Source: Sulfurovum sp. (GTDB lineage Bacteria > Campylobacterota > Campylobacteria > Campylobacterales > Sulfurovaceae). From it: a stretch of DNA of 61,834 nt. The notes under the pieces were generated by a model. It saw only the letters and a list, made by a program, of their open reading frames with translations, had not been told where the DNA came from and made no database searches. How positions within the stretch are numbered: position 1 is the first letter of the stretch; each line of letters opens with the position of its first letter. A program made the position numbers and the translations under genes. The stretch covers positions 1 to 61,834 of the forward strand of contig DYMX01000003.1 of NCBI GenBank assembly GCA_020721345.1. The letters run 5' to 3'. Below are positions 144 to 29,585 of the stretch, one piece after another.

Positions 144-149
144 TTTGGT

Positions 150-216
150 TCTCTAATTTGAAGCAAAGCTTCAAGTTAGACTTTCATGCTATAGCTCTCG
201 TGACTAGCAACTCTTC
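150..216 (-). repeat. Dispersed structured intergenic repeat, copy 3 (divergent, inverted)
   Basis: Reverse complement aagagttgctagtcacgagagctatagcatgaaagtctaacttgaagctttgcttcaaattagagaa aligns with copies at 19437 and 29509, including the GCTTTGC-centred hairpin. Confidence 0.7.
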
Positions 217-19301: not shown

Positions 19302-19326
19302 TTATAAGAAGTGTAAGTGTGGATGT

Positions 19327-19398
19327 CGTCACTGCGAGGATTTGAAAAATCTGCGGCAGTCTATTTATATGGATTGCTTCGCTTTGCTCGCAATGACG
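19327..19398. repeat. Palindromic dispersed repeat of the CGTCATTGCGAG / HCEQSEAI type (REP/MITE-like)
   Basis: Near-perfect 12-bp terminal inverted repeats cgtcactgcgag / ctcgcaatgacg; internal ggattgcttcgctttgctcgcaatgacg. Confidence 0.85.
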
Positions 19399-19436
19399 AA
19401 AAAACAAGCCCGAGGATAACAAAAAAGATACTTTAC

Positions 19437-19511
19437 AAGAGCGACTAGTCGCGAGAGCCGACTGCTGAAGTCCTAATTTCAAGCTTTGCTTGAAATTTGA
19501 GAATTAATCAG
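19437..19511 (+). repeat. Dispersed structured intergenic repeat, copy 1
   Basis: aagagcgactagtcgcgagagccgactgctgaagtcctaatttcaagctttgcttgaaatttgagaattaatcaga; 12-bp palindrome GCGACTAGTCGC plus perfect 10-bp stem AATTTCAAGC-TTT-GCTTGAAATT. Confidence 0.9.
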
Positions 19512-20681
19512 ATAGTCCTTCTAAATTCAGGATAGGATTCGATCCCGCATTCGCTGACATCAATTCCTTCTAGCTGAGCGTCATCTTCTGCTCTGAATAC
19601 TATAAATTTATTTATAACATAAATCGTAGAATAAGATATGGTAAATACAAGTACGCCAATAACCGCAATACCCTTGATTTGGTTCATAAGCGTGACAGAC
19701 TCGCTGCTGGCAAAAAGTCCAACAGCAAGCGTTCCCCATACACCGTTCACTAAGTGAACCGATAACGCACCCACCGGATCATCTATGCGAACCTTATCAA
19801 ATAACGGAACGGATATAACAACCAATGTTCCGCCGATTGTACCGATGATAAGCGAATCCATAGTGTTAAACAGATCAGCGCCTGCCGTGATGGCTACAAG
19901 ACCGCCAAGAGCGCCGTTTAGTATCATTGTGATATCAAAAAGTTTATATCTAAGATAGATAAATATACCCACACTAAGAGCCCCCGCAAGACTTGCCGTA
20001 TTTGTGTTGAATATAGTAAGAGCTACAGAGTCAGCTGCTTCTTTTGTAGCGATACTTCCGACCGACCCGCCGTTAAATCCAAACCATCCTATCCACAGTA
20101 GCAAAGCCCCGAGAGTTACAAGAGGGATATTTGAAGCAGGTATTACTTTTTATCTGATCATTTACATATCTGCCTTTTCTTGAACCAATGACGAGTATTG
20201 CTGCAAGCAATGCCCATCCGCCTATAGAGTGAATAACGGTAGATCCTGCAAGGTCATGCATATTTAGATCTAAAAATGTATCTCTTAGTACATCGCTTCC
20301 CCATGAGATATTTACCATAAAAGGATATATCAATGCTCCCATGATAAGAGTAAAAAGAGTCAGAGAAAATATCTTGGCTCTTTCGCCAACTCCGCCGCTC
20401 ATGATATTTATAGCTTTTCCGACAAAAGCCATTTGAAACATTGCAAAAGCCAAAGGACTCAGGGCAGTAACCTCGATACTGCCAAAAGCAATATCGTATT
20501 CAATGAGTATAAATGCAAGTGATGCTACAACATATATCATGACATTGACCGTTAGTACGCTTGTAACGTTTTTTGTTCTAACAATCCAAGCTTCAAGCAT
20601 AGCAAAGCCCAGAACCATTAGGATAATTAGTGTTGTTGAGAATATCACAAATAGCGTATTGATAATATAACTATAGTCCAT
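19508..20681 (-). pseudogene. amt: Ammonium transporter (Amt family), split by a single-base frameshift
   Basis: ORF 20073-20681 gives the N-terminal half (through GRYVNDQIK) and ORF 19508-20104 the C-terminal half (LLLWIGWFGFNGGS...) in another frame; extra base in A5 run at ~20147-20151. Confidence 0.85.
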
Positions 20682-29508: not shown

Positions 29509-29585
29509 AAGAGCGACTAGTCGCGTGAGCTGTCTGCTGAAGACCTAATTTTAGGCTTTGCCTAAAATTTGAGAATGTATCAGAT
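29509..29585 (+). repeat. Dispersed structured intergenic repeat, copy 2
   Basis: aagagcgactagtcgcgtgagctgtctgctgaagacctaattttaggctttgcctaaaatttgagaatgtatcagat; about 10 mismatches in 75 nt to copy 1, four of them forming two compensatory pairs in the hairpin. Confidence 0.9.

Follow-up and report, generated by a model that had tools for sequence, protein, structure and literature searches.

A small, structured and insertion-polymorphic intergenic repeat family in free-living Campylobacterota

Three short intergenic repeats lie in the 61,834-nt stretch of Sulfurovum sp. DNA analysed here (the window, taken at its full length), and the question they raise is what kind of sequence they are and whether it is their folded structure that has been kept. 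A sequence-only reading had placed them between argB and thrC, between dprA and ilvC, and beside amt, and both positions and neighbours are borne out (argB, thrC, dprA and amt named by ncbifam, ilvC by reading the sequence). When searched with filters off by a covariance model of the 38-nt core, the window gives exactly three significant full-length matches, at 19437-19474 (+) with 63.4 bits (copy A), at 29509-29546 (+) with 63.3 bits (copy B) and at 178-215 (-) with 37.7 bits (copy C). The copies and their parts are as follows.

19437..19515, + strand: copy A, short form, in the convergent spacer beside the 3' end of amt
19441..19452, + strand: hairpin P1 of copy A (GCGA-CTAG-TCGC), covarying helix 1, 98.4% paired in alignment A2
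19456..19472, + strand: H-type pseudoknot of copy A, both interleaved helices covarying
19456-19458 with 19464-19466, + strand: S1 of the copy A pseudoknot
19460-19463 with 19469-19472, + strand: S2 of the copy A pseudoknot
19467-19468, + strand: L3 of the copy A pseudoknot, GA
19475..19497, + strand: 3' hairpin of copy A, 10 bp with a TTT loop, helix 4, 96.4% paired
29509..29585, + strand: copy B, short form, in the argB-thrC spacer and sense to both genes
29513..29524, + strand: hairpin P1 of copy B, from the covariation alignment
29528..29544, + strand: pseudoknot of copy B, S1 29528-29530 with 29536-29538, S2 29532-29535 with 29541-29544
29547..29569, + strand: 3' hairpin of copy B, from the covariation alignment
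149..215, - strand: copy C, diverged, in the ilvC-dprA spacer and antisense to both genes

Copies A and B are well preserved, while copy C has decayed so that its pseudoknot and part of P1 no longer pair fully. Copy B is the sole window copy placed to act on a gene, the start of thrC (29611) lying 26 nt past it; an action on thrC is untested. Two further features adjoin copy A. Directly 5' of it, at 19317-19401 (+), stands an imperfect palindromic repeat of another kind (GTCGTCACTGCGAG ... GCTTCGCTTTGCTCGCAATGACG). The neighbouring amt (19508-20681, -) is split over two frames, with ORFs at 20073-20681 and 19508-20104 that cover consecutive stretches of the ammonium transporter model; this is a frameshift, reflecting either a pseudogene or an assembly error.

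The fold is seen in alignment A2, which comprises 31 copies, mostly from the window's genus. Its conserved core is the 5' 38 nt, made of hairpin P1 (GCRA/UYGC) and a tiny H-type pseudoknot of 3 + 4 bp, and is followed by the 3' hairpin with its TTT loop. In the two interleaved helices of the pseudoknot, S1 joins AGC with GCU and S2 is a 4-bp helix that varies between copies (e.g. GUCU/AGAC, GACU/AGUC, CUCU/AGAG); the first loop is one base, the second is absent and the third is GA. Over the whole alignment 94.9% of cells are paired, and 61 cells are changed on both sides, compared with 14.8 in shuffles, a value equalled in 0 of 500 shuffles. The pairing signal collapses when the partners are slid against each other. 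The sequence-only reading had described a covarying 3' hairpin stem from the three window copies alone. That hairpin is real, and the stem sequences and GC-TTT-GC tip were given correctly except that the stem of the third copy (AACTTGAAGC/GCTTCAAATT) has one C-A mismatch; three copies, however, are insufficient for the claim of covariation, which is carried instead by the 31 genus-level copies, where four pairs of the stem changed on both sides, one of them with six pair types. The hairpin is also only one part of the element, and the 5' 38 nt, where most of the conservation lies, had gone unanalysed.

Copies from other genera have a long form, in which the 3' strand of S2 is followed by AAC, AGYGUUARCGUAG, the 3' hairpin and CGU. 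The pseudoknot and the 3' hairpin are separated by a small GYGUUARC hairpin, and the 3' hairpin is closed by an RCG/CGU clamp. The search expression itself set part of the central pattern, and the conservation of those letters is therefore no independent evidence; the varying letters of S1 and S2 were left free. Of 126 long-form copies, 98-99% are paired in S1 and 99-100% in S2, and two to six pair types are seen where the pairs vary. The whole fold in alignment A5 (64 diverse copies) has 95.7% paired cells and 341 double-changed cells, compared with 109 in shuffles (0 of 500 shuffles equal), and the GYGUUARC hairpin covaries at one pair (CG in 34, UA in 24).

Which strand folds is indicated by the wobble pairs. 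G-U cells (96) far outnumber A-C cells (13), mainly in the 3' hairpin, and hence it is the given strand that folds, as a single-stranded nucleic acid. Single-sequence energy folding favours the fold only weakly (z -2.0 for copy A, -1.0 for copy B). At 17 orthologous loci, consecutive members differ in the pseudoknot by 29 double compensatory and 10 single compatible changes, and in 11 cases pairing is lost in one member; these sequences were read off by hand, and conversion between copies is not excluded. Our results support the earlier suggestion that selection has acted on a nucleic-acid structure and that the copies are not simply decaying, as compensatory changes exceed both shuffles and slid controls and are also found between orthologues at the same locus. 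The functional form is most likely one folded single strand of RNA; single-stranded DNA is not excluded.

How far does the family extend? It had been taken as a three-copy family, a view that does not hold: the window's own genome (G000, 1.24 Mb in 51 contigs) has 19 places at E <= 2.4e-5 with a single-copy query and 23 copies at E <= 1.6e-6 with the core model, and the copy number of one Sulfurospirillum genome reaches 51. The long-form pattern matched at least 120 stretches in 84,980 species genomes. The 80 matches listed carry the labels Sulfurimonas, Sulfurospirillum, Sulfuricurvum, Sulfurovum, Arcobacter, Hydrogenimonas or other Campylobacterota, and among the matches listed are two contigs of one MAG labelled only Proteobacteria. 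With the full-length model, hits at E <= 1e-4 occur in 79 of 397 genomes of the phylum, spread over 12 of 68 genera; weak single matches in other families, at E about 1e-3, may be chance. The short form is scattered over families f1, f16, f17 and f20. As far as searched, the family is confined to Campylobacterota. In Rfam 15 the window matches no family at the gathering threshold, and nine element-bearing loci searched at E up to 5 gave only tRNAs and chance matches; a literature search found no description or name of the element. The sequence-only reading would have fallen if there were just three copies without significant covariation, or if they belonged to an Rfam family, and neither is the case. 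The repeats are a previously unlisted family of small dispersed sequences in free-living relatives of Campylobacter. The element has no match in the phage collection and one weak match, to a Sulfurovum plasmid, in the plasmid collection. One long-form copy is borne by the viral contig IMGVR_UViG_3300032212_000702 (L248, 5713-5739, -), a possible vehicle for spread between genera.

That the element moves came from the comparison of related genomes. Two related Sulfurospirillum genomes have at least seven pairs of filled and empty sites (including L283/L284, L289/L290, L291/L292 and L297/L298), with flanks 87-99% identical. Copy A is absent from all six congeners compared (G004, G005, G006, G007, G009, G010), and in G005 only a few bases of spacer stand at its site; the simplest account is that the window lineage gained it. 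Since filled and empty sites occur in related genomes and copy A is missing from six congeners, we conclude that the element is mobile. The filled and empty sites also favour the earlier alternative of a non-autonomous mobile unit, and we infer that the window copies are copies of such an element. Of the traits of an ERIC/NEMIS-type MITE, the family is dispersed, non-autonomous, intergenic and insertion-polymorphic. In the 117 copies flanked on both sides, orientation to the left and right genes is ++ in 48, -- in 44, +- in 13 and -+ in 12, with no overall preference, and opposite orientations are found in one spacer across species, e.g. rpsL-rpsG and groES-groEL. The site of copy C is filled in several congeners (L047, L051, L059, L078). 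The spacer of copy A carries other, unrelated sequences in each congener, which gives it the look of a hot spot for insertion.

The junctions show neither a constant target-site duplication nor a target motif; a TAAA duplication is possible at L289/L290, and none is evident at L283/L284. Alignments A2 and A5 have no terminal inverted repeats, as P1 and the 3' hairpin occupy opposite ends and the ends are not complementary to each other. Because certain sites are occupied in several species and have compensatory changes, the conservation may in part be due to host function or inter-copy conversion and not to mobility. Some copies form tandem units of 88-90 bp or inverted pairs. The nusG-rplK spacer of one genome (L108, G286:C9) holds a tandem array of 90-bp units with four full core matches and a partial one, and that of a related genome (L193) about one and a half units. 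Back-to-back inverted pairs are found at G284:C1:465503-465580 (-) with 465582-465658 (+) and at G435:C197:19268-19425. Several diverged core copies are interspersed among the seven genes of a tRNA cluster (L109, G316:C50:9000-11500), and these tRNA genes form near-duplicate sets. The inserted units of Sulfurospirillum (e.g. L297, L221) outreach the element, with genus-specific hairpins TTGCAAGAAG upstream and AGAGTTCTGCAAGAACTCT downstream.

One subset of copies, in Sulfurimonas, is tied to start codons. A 3' module (the F-tail), whose hairpin joins CCUU to the Shine-Dalgarno (SD) sequence AAGG, is carried by 59 of 211 distinct long-form copies, and a start codon follows it in 58 of the 59. 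Where the frame can be followed (57 copies), the start lies 76-88 nt past the core in all but one, the outlier having an insert in its 3' hairpin. Within the genus, the downstream gene is in the sense orientation for 39 of 41 F-tail copies, compared with 27 of the 45 tail-less copies for which a downstream gene is called. The SD-masking hairpin (hairpin B) is 98.2% paired with 34 double-changed cells, against 10.8 in shuffles, and an upstream pairing of the same CCUU (hairpin A) reaches at least 6 bp in 44 of 58 copies, against 23% of shuffled sequences. Downstream genes include rplL, rpmA, rpmF, dnaK, nifU, nifS, fabG, hypA, flgG, luxS, tpx, metG and mrp, mostly named by reading the sequence; mrp/apbC is supported by a model match. 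A conserved fold with an SD-masking alternative hairpin in sense orientation, as expected of a riboswitch, is met in this subset only, and it is only here that the earlier suggestion of a processing or regulatory role finds support; none was found for a small RNA gene or a terminator. To judge from these alignments, the Sulfurimonas branch just ahead of start sites probably controls the translation of key genes, which has not been shown for the window copies. Hairpins A and B look like a translational on/off platform of the riboswitch type, for which there are no expression or ligand data. One fold hinted that the 3' strand of the pseudoknot could pair with the anti-SD segment as a switch. This candidate was rejected: the complementarity has no within-copy covariation (1338 of 5000 permutations were as good), and since it is no better within than between copies, a link from the pseudoknot to the platform is not shown.

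We argue that the repeat is likely to be a structured, non-autonomous mobile element and that some copies have turned into translation-control leaders. Its structure, dispersal, insertion polymorphism and lack of overall orientation preference are observed; a mobilising enzyme and the recruitment of copies are inferred. The element would be ∼75-90 bp, functional as one folded strand of P1, a compact H-type pseudoknot and the 3' hairpin. This strand would be recognised by an unidentified trans-acting enzyme that spreads the element, and copies landing in transcribed spacers could then be recruited. In the recruited form of Sulfurimonas, hairpin B would pair CCUU with the SD sequence and hairpin A could take the same CCUU, giving an on/off platform for translation.

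It is conceivable, at rather poor odds, that the family is a cis-regulatory RNA class throughout (a riboswitch or protein-binding leader), spread by duplication of leaders and not by transposition. Such a class would account for the near-constant start-codon distance and covarying SD-masking hairpin of the F-tail copies, and for orthologous retention at dnaK, nifU, rplL, hypA and mrp. However, orientation is unbiased outside the F-tail subset, numerous copies run antisense to both flanking genes or sit in convergent spacers, the neighbours share no common pathway, and tandem arrays of 88-90 bp units occur.

A REP/REPIN-type element, moved as single-stranded DNA by a Y1 (RAYT/IS200) transposase, is a good deal harder to uphold. 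The strand-specific folding, intergenic location and layout of tandem and inverted pairs are as in REPINs (PMC3116915), and copies co-directional with the replication fork are in weak excess (93 versus 57, 62%; the count assumes numbering from oriC). This excess falls short of the strong replication-strand bias that would be a sign of single-stranded DNA transposition. Moreover, Y1_Tnp is missing from the element-rich genomes G005, G022 and G232, yet present in element-free genomes, and those Y1 genes that were examined have other inverted repeats on their flanks, never a copy of the element. Those repeats form a separate system: the Y1/RAYT-like genes at L023 (G000:C25:1933-5262) and L301-L305 are flanked by inverted GGGGTCAGG... 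repeats, with GGTGATAGTGATAG in the window genome and GGGGTCAGGGCTAAACTTTTAAC in Sulfurospirillum. No transposase or other mobilising enzyme was identified for the element.

Weaker still is the reading as a family of small RNA genes, which fits a compact, strongly structured unit of about 90 nt, but not the absence of a conserved promoter-like sequence upstream and of a constant terminator, the up to 51 copies per genome, or the near-fixed start-codon coupling in Sulfurimonas. That these are ordinary inactive repeats, with hairpins left from an old insertion sequence, deserves hardly any credence: some copies have decayed, as copy C has, but compensatory changes outnumber losses even when orthologous copies of a single locus are compared.

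The preferred reading, a structured mobile element partly recruited for translation control, has parallels among known systems. ERIC/IRU and NEMIS (Correia) are small non-autonomous bacterial repeats with RNA-level effects (PMC2229807), and they share with the element a size of ∼100 bp, many intergenic copies, highly base-paired transcripts and the recruitment of some copies into mRNA control (PMC2229807). They have terminal inverted repeats, target-site duplications and long stem-loops, whereas the element has no terminal inverted repeat or constant duplication, is built of small domains in tandem including a pseudoknot, belongs to a different phylum and has a start-codon-linked platform in one lineage. 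REPIN/RAYT systems are likewise short and dispersed, with predicted folding of single-stranded DNA or mRNA and tandem clusters (PMC3116915); the element differs in its covarying pseudoknot, in lacking the REP doublet structure and in that no Y1/RAYT gene linkage was found. Like CIR repeats of Caulobacter and Brucella, it is intergenic and has separate stem-loops without end-to-end pairing (PMC2229807); an exposed GANTC motif is characteristic of CIR repeats, and the passages describing them mention no pseudoknot (PMC2229807). Translational riboswitches that sequester the SD resemble the Sulfurimonas subset only, in a folded domain followed by mutually exclusive hairpins, one of which masks the SD, and differ from the element, which is mobile, is present in many copies per genome at functionally unrelated genes and has no known ligand.

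For few interspersed repeats of bacteria is there good evidence that selection acts at the RNA level, and the element spans many Campylobacterota genera. We would tentatively raise, as an idea that may well prove wrong, that a mobile RNA installs one shared control leader, the pseudoknot with the SD-masking switch, before many housekeeping genes, which would amount to a transposable regulon. The leader would in that case be an unknown riboswitch-like or protein-binding RNA, and one signal or protein could jointly tune ribosomal proteins, chaperones, Fe-S assembly and flagellar genes. The element opens two questions to testing: by what means a repeat under structural selection moves when no transposase is visible, and how a mobile RNA becomes a control element common to many genes.
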